Origin: a virus
Reading direction: 5' to 3' (one strand)
DNA length: 64,000 bases
Virus record (IMG/VR): IMGVR_UViG_3300046007_003307
Coordinates: 1 to 64,000 of that record
Shown: positions 22,572 through 28,414 of the stretch, one piece after another
Layout: every line of letters starts with the position of its first letter
Numbering within the stretch: position 1 is the first letter of the stretch
Translations under genes and position numbers: made by a program
The notes under the pieces: generated by a model
Seen by the model: only the letters and a program-made list of their open reading frames with translations
Database searches by the model: none
What the model was told of the DNA's origin: nothing

Positions 22572-22626
22572 GGTTTTAACCTATAAATATAGTATATCAA
22601 TTATATTTATAGGAATTAAACCATGG
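22568..22626. promoter_or_regulatory. Palindromic divergent late promoter pair
   Basis: The 59 bp between tape measure and gp26 form an imperfect palindrome: CCATGGTTT at one end, AAACCATGG at the other, and CCTATAAATATA facing TATATTTATAGG inside. It holds TATAAATA on the plus strand at 22582-22589 and on the minus strand at 22604-22611, plus both ribosome sites and both ATG codons. The predicted start sites fall close together near 22596. Confidence 0.75.
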
Positions 22627-23477
22627 CTCAAATCAATAACGCAAATCCGTTGGCTAAACACTTTCGCCAACCTGCGCTGTATATCAAGTTAACCAGTGAA
22701 GGTCGGTTTTGGAAAGAAGGCTCATTGGAACTACCTGTAACAGGCGAACTTCCTGTATATCCAATGACCACTAGAGATGAAATTACACTACGCACACCAG
22801 ATGCACTGATCAGTGGTACTAGTGTAGTCGATGTTATACAAAGTTGCTGTCCAAGTATTAAAAACGCTTGGGATATGCCTAGCGTTGATGTAGACACTAC
22901 ATTAATTGCTATCCGTATTGCTAGTTACGGTCCTACAATGGCTATCGGATCAACTTGCCCTGAGTGTGGAACAGAACACGATTATGATGTAGACTTAACT
23001 GCTACCTTAGGTTCCGTATCGATGCCAGATTATTCAAAAACTGTTGAACTACCCGATGGATTATCTGTTAGCCTTAAACCATTGACCTATGCTCAAATTA
23101 GCAAATCCGGTAACACTGTGTTTGAAGAAGAAAAGTTAATTCAAACACTGGCAGATCCAGATCTTGATGCCGAAGTTAGAAAAGTTAGATACACCGAACA
23201 TATTAGTAAGATGGTTGAATTAAACATTGAAACTATAACTAATTGCACAGCAGCTATTACCACAGAAGACGGTGATATTGTAACAGACACAAAATTTATT
23301 AGAGAGTACTACACAAATTCTGAATCAACTGTGTTGCGTACAATACAACAGACAATTGAAGAATTAGCTAAGGCAATTAGTATTAAACCAGTTGATGTAG
23401 TATGTACTGAATGTTCAAAAGAATTTAAATTAGCCATTGATTTCGACTACGCAAGTTTTTTCGCTCGCGGCTTTTGA
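22623..23477 (+). CDS. 26: Baseplate hub protein gp26 (T4 baseplate family), zinc-ribbon type
   Basis: 284 residues with two CxxC pairs typical of this family: CPECG near residues 118-122 and CTECS near 260-264, likely one structural zinc site. SLELPVTGELPVYPMTTRDE near the N-terminus matches the conserved part of the gp26/gp51 family of hub-assembly proteins. In T4 these act early in central hub assembly, with the tape measure gp29. Here gp26 is the divergent neighbour of the tape measure gene and shares its promoter. Near the 3' end the coding sequence has a canonical -1 slippery heptamer, followed by a 72-residue ORF in the -1 frame, so a longer gp26 form of about 356 residues is predicted. 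AGGAAT precedes the ATG. Confidence 0.88.
   Translation: MAQINNANPLAKHFRQPALYIKLTSEGRFWKEGSLELPVTGELPVYPMTTRDEITLRTPDALISGTSVVDVIQSCCPSIKNAWDMPSVDVDTTLIAIRIASYGPTMAIGSTCPECGTEHDYDVDLTATLGSVSMPDYSKTVELPDGLSVSLKPLTYAQISKSGNTVFEEEKLIQTLADPDLDAEVRKVRYTEHISKMVELNIETITNCTAAITTEDGDIVTDTKFIREYYTNSESTVLRTIQQTIEELAKAISIKPVDVVCTECSKEFKLAIDFDYASFFARGF
23456..23462 (+). promoter_or_regulatory. Candidate -1 ribosomal frameshift site (T TTT TTC)
   Basis: In the gp26 frame the codons read AGT TTT TTC, giving the heptamer T TTT TTC four codons before the TGA. A -1 slip leads straight into the ORF at 23474-23692 via RSRLLTLDNDAIVEL. Downstream are a 5-bp hairpin (ACGAT GCT ATCGT, 23487-23499) and an alternative 7-bp stem (ATCGTAG 23495-23501 with CTACGAT 23515-23521) that might stimulate slippage. 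Confidence 0.6.
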
Positions 23478-23692
23478 CCTTAGATAACGATGCTATCGTA
23501 GAATTGCTTGATTCCTACGATAAAGAGTCAAAAGCCTTTAGAGAAGAAGCGTTACGTATGTGTTGGTATATGCGTGGTGGTTTAAGTTACGAAGATGCAA
23601 TGTTTTTAACACAGCAAGAAAGAGATATTATCGGAAAGATTATTAAAGATAATATGGAAACGACCCAAAAAAGTGGCCTCCCGTTTTTTTAA
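23474..23692 (+). CDS. Hub/tail assembly chaperone extension, -1 frame of gp26
   Basis: 72 codons from a TTG that overlaps the gp26 stop (TTGA); no ATG until codon 29 and no good ribosome site. The sequence is helical and acidic, with LDSYDKESKAFREEALRMCW, YMRGGLSYEDAMFLTQQERD and a Lys-rich tail ending GLPFF. A small helical domain of this kind after a larger protein, next to the tape measure gene, recalls the T domain of lambda-type tail chaperones gpG/gpGT, which is made by -1 frameshift. I think frameshifting at 23456-23462 is a better explanation than independent start, but stop-restart at TTGA is possible. It could also correspond in function to gp51. A terminator follows immediately. 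Confidence 0.65.
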   Translation: MTLDNDAIVELLDSYDKESKAFREEALRMCWYMRGGLSYEDAMFLTQQERDIIGKIIKDNMETTQKSGLPFF

Positions 23693-23696
23693 TATT

Positions 23697-23720
23697 AAAG
23701 CACATTTATTGTGCTTTTTT
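23697..23720 (+). terminator. Intrinsic terminator after gp26 operon
   Basis: Stem AAAGCAC/GTGCTTT with a 7-base loop and a run of six Ts, four bases beyond the stop of the 72-codon ORF. Read on the minus strand it gives a similar hairpin with a poorer T-tract, which could also end the RNA transcribed from 24338. Confidence 0.75.
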
Positions 23721-24338
23721 ATTGACTATGATATACGTAAGCTAAGGTCATTATAAGAGCAAAAGACATTTAAGTACATTTAAGGAATGTCTAAAGACAT
23801 TCGCATTTCGCTTGCGCTCATGCCTTTTCTTCTAATCTAATTAATCTAATTTACTTTGATATGTACTGTAATGCTTTTGACTTTAGAACTGCTTCATCCA
23901 GATTATAGTCATACTTCACCCATTACAGGCAAAGTAAAACAGAGCGACTTCATCCGAGTGCTTCATCATACTAACTAAAAGAGATTATATTCATTTACAC
24001 GGAAGCGGTCGCCCTGTACTCCCTACTCTTGCTTCTTGCGACGGTTGATGCATAATCCGTAGTTAGCCAAACTATGTCATCATATGGGTTGTATCTTTTT
24101 CACAGTGCCCAAATCATTCGGTTTTTACACCTAATTTTTATATTGTTGATTCGCTTTTTATAGCACAATACACGGTCGCCATTCAGTGTGTAGTCTAGTC
24201 TACACGTTCCACGTGCGGCCATTACGCGAGCACGATCTCCTCTGAATACAGAACTTAATCTGCAATAGGGCTTTTAACTACATTTACTGCTGAGTTGGAA
24301 TTTGTTTCTGTGAGAGTGACTTGGTGTCTAGGAGCTAT
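23721..24338 (-). ncRNA. Candidate ~600-nt structured non-coding RNA
   Basis: About 650 bp with no plausible reading frame on either strand, exceptional in this compact genome, preceded by a 17-bp-spaced sigma70 promoter on the minus strand. Self-complementary elements in the predicted transcript include GTGTAG/CTACAC (24188-24205), CACGT/ACGTG (24203-24215), GTCGC/GCGAC (24007-24042), a GCAA-tetraloop hairpin (23800-23822) and GAATGTC/GACATTC (23784-23801). A GATGAAG-type motif (GGATGAAG, TGATGAAG, GGGTGAAG) occurs four times between about 23890 and 23970. No tRNA, tmRNA or RNase P signature was found. Size, own promoter and phage setting recall the large phage-associated RNAs GOLLD and ROOL, but I cannot assign it. 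Both ends are estimates. Confidence 0.6.
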
Positions 24339-24344
24339 GTGTTT

Positions 24345-24373
24345 ATTGTAATACGTTTAGTGTTGTTGGTCAA
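24345..24373 (-). promoter_or_regulatory. Sigma70-type promoter for the candidate RNA
   Basis: Minus strand: -35 TTGACC (24368-24373), 17-bp spacer, -10 TACAAT (24345-24350). Predicted start near 24338. The -35 box contains the TGA stop codon of the SegE-like gene. There is no late box, so host polymerase with a vegetative sigma factor should read it. Confidence 0.7.
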
Positions 24374-24810
24374 CTGGTTTTATTAATTTTTAAATCTTTT
24401 ACGGAACCCTTGCCTAATTTAATTTGTATAATACCATTGTAGTTATCTTCTCTCAACAGTACTTCTTCCATAAATTGATAATGCGCTTCCATGTAGTTAG
24501 TTTCACCACGACTTAGACATAGATGTATAATTTCGCGTTTAAACTGTTCCTTGCCTAAAGCTAGGATATCTGCTACTAGTCGACTCGAAGAACCCCAATA
24601 GTCTTTCCAATCAGTTTCAATTGTTTCTAGACGTTTGTTCTTCTTGCCTTTTAACGGTGGTCTTTTTTTGATAGTTTTAAAATACTTACGGCCAACATAA
24701 TCGTAGCCGTTAGTAAGGTTGGTTATTCTATAAATGAAACCGTAGTATGCACCAATATCCTCAGAGTCAAATATTACACCATTGTACGTCCAAGGATATT
24801 CGTATGTCAT
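24370..24810 (-). CDS. SegE-like GIY-YIG endonuclease-type protein
   Basis: 146 residues. GAYYGFIYRITNLTNGYDYV followed by GRKYF supplies both halves of the GIY-YIG motif (GFIY and YVG), and the family-typical segment DWKDYWGSSSRL, KREIIHLCLSRGETNYMEAH (with the conserved Glu) follows. That combination matches the SegE-like putative endonucleases common in T4-like phages. Such proteins are relatives of homing nucleases; some cut DNA at intergenic sites, most are untested. No intron flanks it. Its 3' end carries the promoter of the candidate RNA and its 5' end is 7 bases from the histone-like gene. Confidence 0.8.
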   Translation of the reverse strand: MTYEYPWTYNGVIFDSEDIGAYYGFIYRITNLTNGYDYVGRKYFKTIKKRPPLKGKKNKRLETIETDWKDYWGSSSRLVADILALGKEQFKREIIHLCLSRGETNYMEAHYQFMEEVLLREDNYNGIIQIKLGKGSVKDLKINKTS

Positions 24811-24817
24811 ACGTTAT

Positions 24818-25003
24818 TTATTTTGCAGCCGCTGCATTTTTCTTCTCTTGGATTTCTGCACGACGAGCTTTGGCCAATTTAGCCAAGTCACCTAATGCAC
24901 CACGAGCACGTGCCGCTGCGGCTTTAACACCTTTAACTTCAAATTTTTCTGATTCTGCTACGTATAATTCTACTGCTGCTAAAATATCATCATGAATTGC
25001 CAT
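24818..25003 (-). CDS. Small Hc1/histone-like DNA-binding protein
   Basis: I choose the ATG at 25003 (MAIHDDILAAVELYVAESEK), 61 residues, because AAGGAGA sits at the proper distance; the longer frame to 25039 lacks this. The second half, KGVKAAAARARGALGDLAKL then AKARRAEIQEKKNAAAAK, is Ala/Lys/Arg-rich and helical like chlamydial histone Hc1 and related small proteins in cyanophages. It probably binds nucleic acid non-specifically, for example in DNA packing or nucleoid disruption. A late-like box TTAAATACACACAAC precedes it, which suggests late expression although its neighbours are DNA-metabolism genes. Confidence 0.65.
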   Translation of the reverse strand: MAIHDDILAAVELYVAESEKFEVKGVKAAAARARGALGDLAKLAKARRAEIQEKKNAAAAK

Positions 25004-25020
25004 GTTTACTTCTCCTTGTT

Positions 25021-25035
25021 GTTGTGTGTATTTAA
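25021..25035 (-). promoter_or_regulatory. Probable late promoter for histone-like gene
   Basis: Minus strand TTAAATACACACAAC, close to the extended late form AATAAATACACTATAAC, 18 bases upstream of the ATG at 25003. Confidence 0.4.
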
Positions 25036-25058
25036 CCACCCTGTATTGGATGGTAAAA

Positions 25059-26831
25059 TTAAATTACTTCTACGTCAGTACTATATGATGTAAACCCATT
25101 TTCTTTGGTTACAGTCATAATGTTATTAACTCGCCCCGCAAGTTCATCTTTATGCGAAACAAGCCAAATACTTTTCTCATGCTCTCTAGACATTTTTTTA
25201 AGTATACCCAATGAACTTTCAACTCCGCTACTGTCCATGCCGCTGTCAATAAGCTCATCAATGAATAATAAGTTAATAGGATTGTATAAACTTTCCCAGA
25301 CATCACGGAATGCCCACGATAAACTTAATATCAAGCGATTGCGTTCACCACGTGATAAGTTATCAAAGTCTAGTTCACGGCCTAACTCTGTAATTTCTAC
25401 ACTTAAATCGTTTAAGAATGTTACTGTATGTGGCAATCCTATACGATCTAAGTATTGACTTAGGCGTGCGTTTAAATGCGACAAGTTTTGATCAATAATA
25501 CGTTTACGAATAAAGCTATCTTTGTTAGTTAATAGTTTCAACAAGAAGTCTTGATGTTCTTTTAACTTAACTAGCTCGTTCATAGTAGTATAATCAGTTT
25601 CTACTAATGCAGTCTGTGTCATCTCTTCGATTTGTTCATCATATGGATCAACTTCTGTAGCCTTAGCGGCCAACTGTGTTTCTAAACTAGTAATAGAACC
25701 CTTGTGATGAAACGCATCTGCTTCTTTATCGTAATATACTCGAGGTTGCGCACCAAGAGGACCAATTTCTGTTTTAGCACCTATCAGCGCCGTTAATTGT
25801 GTTTGATCAGTTTGGTACTGTGTAGTAGCAGTTTCGAGTGATGTACGTTTAGCCGCTAACACTTCTTCGTGTTTGCTATCGTGAAAATGTTGACCGCAAG
25901 CATAACAAGTATGTGCTTCGAGGTCGGCAATTTCTTTAGTAACTTTATCTATAGTCTTTTGTTCACGGGCAATATCTGCTTCGCTACGCAAAATGGCCTT
26001 GGTCAAATCATCTAAGTCTTTACGCTGTTGGTTGTAAGCAGTAAGCGCAGTGTGTGCCGCTAGCTCTTGTTCAATATCAATTTTACGTAGTTCTGTAAGG
26101 GCATTTTGTAGTTTTACTGTGTCATCTGCATGCTTGGTAGTCCACATAGTTTGCCGGCGTTTTAAGCTGTCAATTTGCTCTTGAATACGACCATTTGCGT
26201 CGGTTATAGCCTTAATATTGAACTCTTCTTGCTGTATTGCATCCTTAGTAGCACGACCCAACTCTTTAAGTTTTTCTGCCTTTTCACTTAAGACAGTGAT
26301 ACCAAGTAGCTGTTCAATAATTTCACGTTGGTCGTTAGATTTAAGACTAAGGAATGGTTCGGTGTAGGTATTAAGCGCAACAATGTGTTTGAACATATTG
26401 TGCGACATGCTTAACAAACGTTCAATTTCAGCCTGTGTTTCTCTACTATCGCCTTGACTTTCGTCGGTAATTTCTTTTTCTTCATCACCTACATAAAACT
26501 TCATTATGTTTGGCTTACGACCACGTTCAATCTTATAGTCTTGCCCGTTATGTTCAAATTCAACAGTAACCAACATGTTCTTACCGTTAGTTTTGTTAAT
26601 TAAATTATCACGTTTGATATTGGTTAATGCCTGCCCAAACAGACTGTAGCTTAAGGCATTGATAATAGTTGTTTTACCAGTGCCATTACGTGCGCCACTA
26701 TCATCGCCGCCTAAGTCAACGTTAACACCTAATACTAATGTCAGGTCGTTGCGGTCAAAGTCCACAGCTTGTGTTGCATTACCAACACTCATGAAGTTCT
26801 TGACTGTAAGATTTTTTATTTTAAATGTCAT
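25059..26831 (-). CDS. 46: Recombination nuclease subunit gp46 (Rad50/SbcC-type ATPase)
   Basis: 590 residues, near T4's 560. Walker A is GARNGTGKTT (46-55). Long coiled-coil arms (~170-290 and ~320-430) flank a zinc hook CYAC near 305-310. The ABC signature NLSRGERNR is near 490 and Walker B LLFIDELIDSG near 520. With gp47 it forms the Mre11-Rad50-type complex that resects ends for recombination-dependent replication and host DNA breakdown. In many T4-like phages gp46 and gp47 are close; here two accessory genes lie between them. No clear promoter of its own; it is probably read from the one before gp47. Confidence 0.96.
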   Translation of the reverse strand: MTFKIKNLTVKNFMSVGNATQAVDFDRNDLTLVLGVNVDLGGDDSGARNGTGKTTIINALSYSLFGQALTNIKRDNLINKTNGKNMLVTVEFEHNGQDYKIERGRKPNIMKFYVGDEEKEITDESQGDSRETQAEIERLLSMSHNMFKHIVALNTYTEPFLSLKSNDQREIIEQLLGITVLSEKAEKLKELGRATKDAIQQEEFNIKAITDANGRIQEQIDSLKRRQTMWTTKHADDTVKLQNALTELRKIDIEQELAAHTALTAYNQQRKDLDDLTKAILRSEADIAREQKTIDKVTKEIADLEAHTCYACGQHFHDSKHEEVLAAKRTSLETATTQYQTDQTQLTALIGAKTEIGPLGAQPRVYYDKEADAFHHKGSITSLETQLAAKATEVDPYDEQIEEMTQTALVETDYTTMNELVKLKEHQDFLLKLLTNKDSFIRKRIIDQNLSHLNARLSQYLDRIGLPHTVTFLNDLSVEITELGRELDFDNLSRGERNRLILSLSWAFRDVWESLYNPINLLFIDELIDSGMDSSGVESSLGILKKMSREHEKSIWLVSHKDELAGRVNNIMTVTKENGFTSYSTDVEVI

Positions 26832-26844
26832 AATTTCTCATCAT

Positions 26845-27546
26845 TTATTTTGTCAGGTGCTTTTGTATATTATAATACCTTTTAGGATCATAGTCAATGA
26901 AATCACAGTTAGGTTTGACTATGGTATCTAACCATTCAAGTTGTACAGCAGAATGCGGCTGTGCCAATCCAGAGTCAAGGTCTTTGTACGTGCTAATTAA
27001 TCTAAAGCTACTTAAATCTTGGTCTATCCAAGGTAAATTTTTAACAGCAATGGCCATCGGACCGTCGAAATTAAAGTCATATGCTAGAGTAAACACAAAA
27101 GGTATATTTTTATTTTTTAATAGAGTTGATGCGGCTAACATATACGATTGACTGCGCTGAGTTGCTTGCCATTCTTTAATATATCTATTATGATATTCTT
27201 TTATATATTGATTGTTGCTGGAACTAGTAACCCACCAATCTTGATTATTAGATTGCACAATATTAAAATGATACACAGGATCGATCTTTGCCTGCTCTTG
27301 CCAAAATTCATCAGCTACTAAATCAATTCGTGCGGGTATAGTCCATTGAATAATTGCACAGTCGATATTTTCAGTTTCAATTGATTCTGCAACCTGCATT
27401 AATATCAACTCATTACTAGCACCGATTACAGATTTATTTTTAATCTGTAATGAATCCGACGTCATTAACTGTAATAACGTTGGCCATTTTTTAAAGTCGT
27501 TGTCGACTCCATTGCCGTCACTAATTGCTAATAAGGTTTTTTTCAT
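26845..27546 (-). CDS. SGNH-hydrolase-like protein, degenerate motif I
   Basis: 233 residues. The layout is SGNH-like: a first strand LLAISDGNGVDNDF then KWPTLLQLM, SVIGASNELILMQVAE as block II, DCAIIQWTIPARID as block III, and a late DYDPKRYYN region. However, the catalytic GDS of block I reads SDGNG, so the nucleophile Ser seems missing or displaced; it may bind rather than cleave. Aquatic phages carry many such uncharacterised SGNH-like genes near sugar-modifying enzymes. It overlaps the sulfotransferase-like gene by 26 bases. AT-rich compared with gp46 and gp47. The family call is moderate, the activity unknown. Confidence 0.5.
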   Translation of the reverse strand: MKKTLLAISDGNGVDNDFKKWPTLLQLMTSDSLQIKNKSVIGASNELILMQVAESIETENIDCAIIQWTIPARIDLVADEFWQEQAKIDPVYHFNIVQSNNQDWWVTSSSNNQYIKEYHNRYIKEWQATQRSQSYMLAASTLLKNKNIPFVFTLAYDFNFDGPMAIAVKNLPWIDQDLSSFRLISTYKDLDSGLAQPHSAVQLEWLDTIVKPNCDFIDYDPKRYYNIQKHLTK

Positions 27547-28414
27547 TTATTTTAATAATTGCTTGTTGTATTTGTTCAGTAGACTGAAACCAATTGCGAT
27601 AGTCATATACTGGAATTTCAATATTATATCGTTTTTCTATACAATAGTTAATATATCCCTGTTCGTGTAGATCAACTATATGAGATATATCAATATTTTT
27701 GTTATTTTCCAATGCAGATAAAATTAAATTGGCATGAAAGTATACACTAAAATATTTTGAATTAGCTGTAAACCAATCGGCTAACACTAATGTTAACCTA
27801 TCTTCATTGATTAGTTTCATACCCAACTGGTTGATTAATTTTTTTATAGTATTAATTGGCGATATTAACAACTGTTCAAAACTCAAATTGATCGTTGATT
27901 CAGTTGGCTCCCAACCATATGACCAGTTGTGATACATTAAAGTAAAATCTTCTCGCTGAGCATAATCTTCTGCGGCATCGGACCAATTGTTTTGTACATG
28001 TTCGCTGTGATTGGCATTAAGATCCTGACATACAGCTTTGATTATGCAGGTTTGATATATTATAGGTCTAACAGCAGGGTCGATTACTATGCGTACAATC
28101 TTAGCATTTGGAAATGTTAAGTTTATTTTATCGTAACAGTCGTTATTGATCCCATTGTCGCACAGGACTACTACTTTATTATTCTTTGGGTCAATGTCGC
28201 AGTGCAGTTGGTATTCAGTCGGATCCATAAAATACGTATTGGTATACATTACAATACTATGACTGTTTCCGTCTTGACTAAAAGTTAATTCGTTATTTGA
28301 TAATTTAACTGTTTGGTCTGCAAATTCACTTAATATATAGTATAGAAAATTTCCAAACCCACCAGAAGGGTAACTTATACAAATAATGTCGTTACTATCG
28401 GTGCAGAACCTCAT
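27521..28414 (-). CDS. Sulfotransferase-like P-loop protein
   Basis: 297 residues. ICISYPSGGFGNFLYYILSE (~11-30) is in the position and style of the 5'-phosphosulfate loop of sulfotransferases, though it lacks the usual Lys/Arg-Ser-Gly-Thr; INLSFEQLLISPINTIKKLI (~174-193) matches the family's 'EDLL-DP--TL--L' region before the small C-terminal domain. Substrate unknown: cell-surface glycans or a phage structure are possible. A distant glycosyltransferase relation (GGFGN as in fucosyltransferases) is an alternative. Its ATG overlaps the gp47 stop (ATGA), and with the SGNH-like gene it forms an insertion in the gp46-gp47 locus. Confidence 0.5.
   Translation of the reverse strand: MRFCTDSNDIICISYPSGGFGNFLYYILSEFADQTVKLSNNELTFSQDGNSHSIVMYTNTYFMDPTEYQLHCDIDPKNNKVVVLCDNGINNDCYDKINLTFPNAKIVRIVIDPAVRPIIYQTCIIKAVCQDLNANHSEHVQNNWSDAAEDYAQREDFTLMYHNWSYGWEPTESTINLSFEQLLISPINTIKKLINQLGMKLINEDRLTLVLADWFTANSKYFSVYFHANLILSALENNKNIDISHIVDLHEQGYINYCIEKRYNIEIPVYDYRNWFQSTEQIQQAIIKINEKNLISN

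Follow-up and report, generated by a model that had tools for sequence, protein, structure and literature searches.

A conserved structured RNA with twin heptamer repeats predicted in T4-related large phages

The locus

The window analysed here is a stretch of 64,000 nucleotides, positions 1 to 64,000 of the IMG/VR virus record IMGVR_UViG_3300046007_003307 (105,119 bases in all). Positions 23,721 to 24,373 form a gene-free block between a SegE-like GIY-YIG gene (24370-24810, minus) and a convergent baseplate-hub operon (22623-23692, plus). Comparison with related phages makes it near certain that the minus strand of this block specifies a conserved structured RNA, the representative of an RNA family that is established by comparison, while its expression and function are predictions. 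The RNA carries two copies of a 7-nt word, which the alignment of relatives showed to vary between phages, with both copies changing together. The main features of the locus are listed below (coordinates, strand, feature, evidence).

22623..23477, plus: baseplate hub gene, convergent neighbour (PF12322, E=8e-19; phrog_150)
23697..23717, no strand assigned: AAAGCACAATAAATGTGCTTT inverted repeat, terminator-like, between the RNA and the convergent hub operon (sequence)
23785..24271, minus: conserved body of the RNA, about 490 nt (alignment with L010, L015, L016, L018 and L017; match to covariance model R1)
24345..24373, minus: promoter-like TTGACC-17-TACAAT, overlapping the stop codon of the SegE-like gene (sequence, close relatives)
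24370..24810, minus: SegE-type GIY-YIG protein, immediate upstream neighbour (PF19835, E=1.2e-34)
25059..26831, minus: gp46/SbcC-like recombination nuclease subunit (phrog_77, E=4e-105)

That the block is free of genes, as the initial annotation proposed, was borne out: only two open reading frames (ORFs) of at least 30 aa lie inside 23721-24373, 40 aa each, one per strand. Nor is an ORF kept in the same interval of relatives, since none of 108 relatives has a frame open across the 400-nt core in any of the six frames. The longest stop-free run per sequence has a median of 63 codons and a maximum of 122, and a coding region was rejected because, despite such runs, no frame spans the core.

Across 128 distinct contexts, with clusters labelled by length and order, the window's hub protein is represented by its cluster in 92, its SegE-like protein in 90 and its gp46-like protein in 82. 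Most often the RNA is flanked by gp46/SegE-like genes on one side and by the convergent baseplate-hub gene on the other.

Structure and covariation

A relaxed sequence pattern gave 154 matches in the 256 sequences collected, which fell into 92 clusters. From the 92 cluster representatives 79 were kept (10 were removed by hand because of insertions, truncation or unclear borders, and 3 were unparsed), and thinning by length and similarity left 45 aligned rows. A structure with two pseudoknots (PK1 and PK2) was built by hand from the row of L208 and counted over this alignment. The proportion of paired cells, 82.8% of 2267, exceeds that in shuffled alignments (71.7±0.5%) and in slid controls (42.4-47.2%), and the 287 cells with double changes compare with 113±10 in shuffles and 45-97 in slid controls. 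The large structured phage RNA proposed for the minus strand in the initial annotation, for which covariation in homologues had been named as a check, is thus supported beyond both kinds of control. The elements of the predicted structure in the window, in 5' to 3' order of the RNA, are as follows.

24209..24237, minus: 5' domain stem GTGC..GCAC, TCGG..CCGA in L010 (compensatory change)
24188..24205, minus: 5' domain hairpin GTGTAG..CTACAC, GTATAG..CTATAC in L010 (compensatory change)
24085..24112, minus: P5 hairpin, stem UGGG/CCCA, conserved loop CACUGUGAAAAAGAUACAA (helix 1, 95.0% of cells paired)
24051..24076, minus: P6 hairpin, approximate borders, loop CUAACUA forming PK1 (helix 2, 69.9% paired)
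24001..24044, minus: PK2 (GUCGC with GCGAC) and P8 (GGGAG/CUUCC), with the 5' strand of P9 between (helices 5 and 7, 93.3% and 100% paired)
23978..24032, minus: P9 (AGAG/CUCU), closing P8 and hairpin P10 (helix 6, 96.7% paired)
23971..23979, minus: 3' strand of PK1, UAGUUAG, directly after P9 (helices 3 and 4, 72.4 and 86.7% paired)
23948..23959, minus: repeat copy 1, ACUC-GGAUGAAG (repeat comparison)
23912..23936, minus: P13 hairpin, between the repeats (helix 10, 92.4% paired)
23892..23904, minus: repeat copy 2, AAUCU-GGAUGAAG (repeat comparison)
23785..23824, minus: 3' module, GAGCGCAAGCGA hairpin followed by a GAAUGUC-UUUA-GACAUUC hairpin (alignment, sequence)

P5, P8, PK2, P9 and P13 are each more than 92% paired, PK1 72-87%, and P6 and P10 (helix 8, 71.1%) about 70%; the low value of P6 is partly due to the window-like rows, which are offset by two columns in the alignment. 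Double changes occur in three of the four pairs of P5 and in 7 of the 10 pairs of P13. At the place of PK1, CTAACTA is the commonest longest pairing (16 of 108 sequences). One G-U pair of P8 is kept in all 45 sequences and would become A-C on the opposite strand, which identifies the minus strand as the one predicted to fold.

The hairpins noticed at first reading fit this picture. Two stems change on both sides between the window and L010: the GTGTAG/CTACAC hairpin, and the 5' domain stem that the CACGT/ACGTG region overlaps. The GCAA-capped stem (23803-23824), recognisable in most of 40 rows viewed, and GAATGTC/GACATTC (23785-23802) together form the 3' module. The ends of the RNA are approximate, the span being about 24271-23785, with a start at about 24338 if the promoter-like site is used.

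Against these results must be set two of the five structure measures, which are weak: the number of pairs with double changes (33 versus 29.5) was reached by 30 of 500 shuffles, and that of further pair types (94 versus 86.7) by 15 of 500. Helix P12, just 56.5% paired, is not established. Folding energy is unremarkable (z of -1.5 for the minus strand and -0.1 for the plus strand, 20 shuffles each) and says little, so that the evidence for the RNA is comparative.

Distribution among relatives

The search for relatives of the hub gene in IMG/VR yielded 36 loci. In alignable near relatives the identity of the block is 91.8-100%, and in L017 it is 73%; the core of the block is recognisable in L019, L025, L026, L027 and L034. 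In L008-L011, L013 and L018 about 750 additional bases lie between a 72-aa gene and the RNA, with the break near window positions 23694-23744; this indel adjoins the 3' side of the RNA.

Two short conserved patterns gave at least 120 matches each in IMG/VR, a lower bound on abundance, and an RNA core pattern occurred once in each of 14 phage records. At E<0.01 model R1 matched 26 of 50 sources, including some used in building it; the window sequence itself, part of the model as L001, matched at 23960-24112 on the minus strand. Matches among sources outside the model were found in L030, L042, L049, L084 and L178, and weaker, distant ones near the hub gene in L020-L024, L028, L029 and L036. Five records searched over all or nearly all of their length gave one strong match each, with one further match at E 0.97. 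Presence in bacterial genomes was considered and rejected: the pattern matched 16 stretches of genome contigs. In 11 of these the R1 match covered no more than the pattern (E 0.02-0.4; model positions 93-115, in one case up to 131), and the remaining five had no R1 match.

Twin heptamer repeats

Two 7-nt direct repeats flank hairpin P13, and their word differs among phages. The GATGAAG-like motifs of the initial annotation are present, and two of them (23948-23959 and 23892-23904) turned out to be the copies of this co-evolving repeat. A search for the same word of at least 6 nt succeeded in 148 of the 154 matches, although such a search selects for identity and at least the word of L225 is spurious. 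When the copies were anchored without using identity, which was possible for 133 of the 154 matches, they were identical over 7 nt in 123 pairs (permutation mean 16.9, maximum 29 in 2000 permutations) and in 18 of 24 distinct word pairs. Beyond the heptamer, position 8 is equal in just 49 of the 133.

The signal is also visible in the alignment, where three column pairs of the repeats rank second to fourth by mutual information with average product correction. On a tree built without the repeat columns the word changes at least 28 times, with 14 words among the 45 rows, and three repeat positions each change a minimum of 9-13 times. On supported branches the independent pairs were concordant in 3 of 3, on average 2.9 of 3, and 4 of 4 cases, numbers too small for single sign tests to be significant. 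The flanks are nearly constant in the identity-selecting search: of its 148 cases, 142 have ACTC ahead of copy 1 and 139 have ATCT ahead of copy 2. The sequence after copy 2 varies widely in the 40 of 108 rows viewed.

Homologous RNAs in cultured jumbo phages

Cultured relatives of the hub protein belong to jumbo phages, many of them RaK2-related. At the homologous place about 680-800 bp are free of annotated genes in BF, XbC2 and Munch, and 121Q, CBB and GAP32 likewise have a gap beside the hub gene (six records in all). The sequence of the BF gap was found at 143 places in 31 phage records, four or five in each; under the best match the annotation has nothing in 21 records and hypothetical proteins drawn over it in 9, and one record is unannotated. 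BF, XbC2 and Munch carry five paralogues each, all on one strand of the record. The RNA is also present in Sharanji (OR545507), whose host is listed as E. coli K-12 MG1655, so that expression, structure and partner of the predicted RNA could be examined there.

Six of 10 jumbo records matched a pattern of the pseudoknot core, among them RaK2, a phage without the gap beside the hub gene; the reversed control of the pattern gave no match. The pattern was absent from CBB, XaC1, Atu_ph07 and Phosso; CBB and XaC1 nevertheless carry the RNA, and CBB and GAP32 were missed by the motif search because their PK2 differs, direct reading having shown the homologue. Of 15 jumbo paralogues, 5 had an R1 match at the right place and on the right strand, with E values from 1.4e-4 to 0.018. 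In 15 of 17 RNAs the longest match at the place of PK1 is 7 bp and lies 20-23 nt upstream of copy 1; this pairing has seven different sequences. Its complementarity control is weak (own mean 7, swapped 6.3, shuffled 5.8) because the paralogues share sequences, and the evidence here is its place together with its changing sequence. P8 changes while its pairing is kept (GGGAG/CUUCC, GAGAG/CUUUC, GUGAG/CUUAC, CUGG/CCAG), and PK2 changes from GUUGC/GCAAC in BF to GUUAC/GUAAC in CBB and GAP32.

Twin repeats of 5-7 nt were recognised by eye in all 15 jumbo paralogues and also in CBB and GAP32. Their words are CGUCAG, CGUCAA(G) or UGUCA, with an AYC flank that, by eye, changes in step, and the five paralogues within one genome share a nearly identical word. 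In one paralogue class (L319, L324 and L329) repeat copy 1 is a hairpin stem followed by about eight T, a terminator-like arrangement.

Relatives of the window thus show covariation of P5, P8/PK2, P9, PK1 and P13, and the jumbo phages share PK1, PK2/P8 and the twin repeats, together with R1 matches at the homologous place. Taken together, synteny, topology, motifs and modest model scores suggest that the jumbo-phage RNAs are divergent homologues of the window-type RNA. This assignment is weakened by the 10 of 15 jumbo paralogues that had no R1 match at the right place below E 0.2, and by the modest scores of BF and XbC2 in a wider R1 search (about 10 bits, E 1-3).

Two further phages have long stretches beside or near the hub gene. 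In PA5oct (L387 6525-8039), the annotated genes in 1.5 kb beside the hub gene are all very short; the stretch also contains a site like TTGACA-17-TATAAT and a weak R1 match (E 0.061), and may hold another relative. Sinorhizobium phage Phosso (L294 7223-8238) has a 1-kb gap without annotated genes near the hub gene, with GC-rich inverted repeats, in which R1 found no match (best E 2.6).

Promoter-like sites

The minus-strand TTGACC-17 bp-TACAAT reported at the border of the block is present at 24345-24373. It is kept in all four close aligned relatives that reach the site and absent from L017. Sites scoring at least 10 occur in 10 of 111 relatives versus 4.7 expected, and seven of these 10 belong to the window's own clade, so a family-wide sigma-70 promoter is unsupported among the 111. 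The earlier suggestion of early transcription by the host sigma factor is not supported as it stood, the promoter-like site being conserved only near the window. A replication origin at the GC-skew extreme was looked for and is likewise unsupported.

In the jumbo phages, all 15 paralogues examined have TATAAT on their 5' side, preceded by TGRAAC in 9 of 10 BF and XbC2 paralogues; in the Munch paralogues this element is mostly TGGGAC or TGAGAC, or lies outside the part covered. The BF and XbC2 sites resemble a promoter class, TGAAACG...TATA, described for phage CBB (PMC5259590). Passages of that paper describe promoters and not these RNAs, and its text does not contain the words 'noncoding', 'non-coding' or 'intergenic'.

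Comparison with known RNA families

No Rfam family matched the window at gathering score. Seven matches at E up to 10 in 23600-24500 belong to other families and lie far below gathering scores, as do the best of the weak matches that were rejected, BSnc120 in L019, away from the RNA (E 0.02), and rli47 in the window (E 0.05). The view that the block is not a tRNA, tmRNA, 6S RNA, RNase P RNA or group I intron agrees with this: ARAGORN and Rfam found no tRNA or tmRNA in the window, and group I and II introns, RNase P, 6S and HEARO had no Rfam match there at gathering score. The Rfam covariance search proposed at the outset also gave no match to GOLLD or ROOL. For GOLLD (RF02032), 0 of 10 records exceeded the cut-off (best E 9.84); for ROOL (RF03087), 0 of 12 records matched, though the control genomes gave no match either, and none appeared in Rfam scans at E up to 1-10. 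The likeness to GOLLD and ROOL suggested initially therefore stands for size, ornateness and setting and fails for family membership. A large folded RNA that is absent from Rfam and recurs in many uncultured phages thus seems to have been overlooked until now, in several copies, in giant phages already known from E. coli, Salmonella and their relatives; a literature search by title listings, with open-access coverage, found no paper on it.

We know of no co-evolving direct heptamers in ROOL. Like the block RNA, ROOL RNA (574 model positions) is large and phage-encoded, and GOLLD is a large phage and prophage RNA. ROOL has multiple pseudoknots, as the block RNA appears to have, and GOLLD has a conserved 3' region with a variable 5' region, which we count as a likeness, whereas ROOL is often near tRNA islands and the window has no tRNA (PMC12286853).

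Possible function and alternatives

We consider the chances about even that the block encodes a large, stable, trans-acting noncoding RNA with twin docking sites, belonging to a lineage of T4-related large phages that would comprise the window's relatives and the RaK2-related jumbo phages. Comparison shows the minus-strand transcript to fold into a 5' domain, the P5 hairpin, a two-pseudoknot core, P13 between the two words and a 3' module of two hairpins. Within the core, the P6 loop pairs with the segment after P9, and GUUGA pairs inside the P8 hairpin. The core could then serve as a scaffold that presents the two words as twin docking sites to a single phage-specific partner, either a protein or a second RNA, of which two copies or two halves would bind. 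Any change in this partner would force the same change at both sites. The RNA would act in trans during infection, as RNA or as ribonucleoprotein; this we infer from the lack of a following same-direction gene in the window lineage, the promoter-like sites of the jumbo phages and the word shared among paralogues. A scaffold with two equal docking sites is the most economical mechanism, and we hold it tentatively, with slightly less assurance than the existence of such a trans-acting RNA.

Several observations speak against the twin docking sites. The copies are non-identical in 10 of the 133 anchored pairs and 6 of the 24 distinct ones, and the words are barely more unpaired than average (0.47 and 0.53 versus 0.41 in 108 sequences). 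No consistent complement of the word was found inside the RNA, and no third column of the alignment covaries convincingly with the repeat pairs. The word is not enriched in the rest of the collected loci (forward 102 versus 100±9, reverse 53 versus 67±9) or in the genomes searched. Nor was a conserved target context found across six phage records: in 36 cross-record pairs the word fell within the best aligned part in 4 and at the same offset in none.

The main rival is a guide RNA, in which both words would pair with the same complementary DNA or RNA sequence, either joining two DNA sites with a 7-bp overlap, as in IS110, or regulating through two identical seeds. A short word that varies freely yet stays strictly identical between its copies is to be expected if both pair with one target; the identity ends after 7 nt, and nuclease genes (SegE-like, endonuclease VII, gp46) flank the locus. 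In the IS110 bridge RNA two segments of one RNA share a short identical core, and the RNA joins two DNA sites. The block RNA resembles it in having two segments with a short identical core; unlike it, the shared word is 7 nt, the flanks are nearly constant, at odds with programmable guide arms, and no recombinase was found among the 8 neighbours scanned. Membership in that class is not indicated on current evidence. No consistent complement was found in the RNA, nearby or at a conserved genomic place. We regard a guide function as rather unlikely. The same degree of doubt applies to a new class of phage RNA machine, in which one pseudoknotted scaffold would carry two identical, freely re-programmable recognition arms of 7 nt and thereby read the same phage-specific sequence or partner twice; such a machine could, for example, be guided by its RNA to join or compare two sites that share a 7-nt core.

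Improbable, although comparable in size, phage origin and pseudoknots, is a GOLLD- or ROOL-like multimer or cage made of RNA alone, self-assembling with the repeats as quaternary contacts. Precedents are ROOL env-120, which at 659 nt forms a nanocage, and the symmetric A-A contact between chains in OLE (PMC12286853). The RNA has no match to GOLLD or ROOL, and the identical words of one chain are not mutually complementary, so that simple kissing fails to explain them.

Equally improbable is a leader RNA, an attenuator or riboswitch for downstream genes that became orphaned in the window lineage. In its favour, and against action in trans, four of the five paralogues of Serratia phage BF lie just upstream of a same-strand gene, and in BF_93k, BF_174k and BF_259k the two words are separated by a hairpin with a T-run. 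The downstream genes differ among the BF paralogues, however, the hub-side copy faces a convergent gene in both the window and BF, and the T-run hairpin is absent from BF_30k, BF_335k and the window.

Direct repeats for ribosome hopping or RNA excision, with matched take-off and landing or cut sites around P13, would account for identity within the molecule, the hairpin between the copies and a codon-like reading of the words by eye. This is very unlikely, since no frame is open across the core in any of the 108 relatives and the sequence after copy 2 is variable; hopping in particular is unsupported, its codon reading having been made by eye. Ordinary intergenic DNA or a decayed gene, with which the unremarkable folding energy would agree, can be dismissed almost entirely in view of the covariation and wide conservation.

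The RNA is conserved in large phages of one lineage, and the three cultured jumbo genomes examined hold about five copies each. The concerted change of its heptamers, through identity and not complementarity, is in our judgement an unusual signal of co-evolution and points to a partner.

Other genes near the locus

Two further minus-strand proteins of the window deserve mention. A 73-aa protein encoded at 24818-25039, between the SegE-like gene and gp46, matches the histone H1-like Hc1 family (PF07432, E=2e-9), and the protein encoded at 27521-28414 has a sub-threshold sulfotransferase match (PF13469, E=2e-5).
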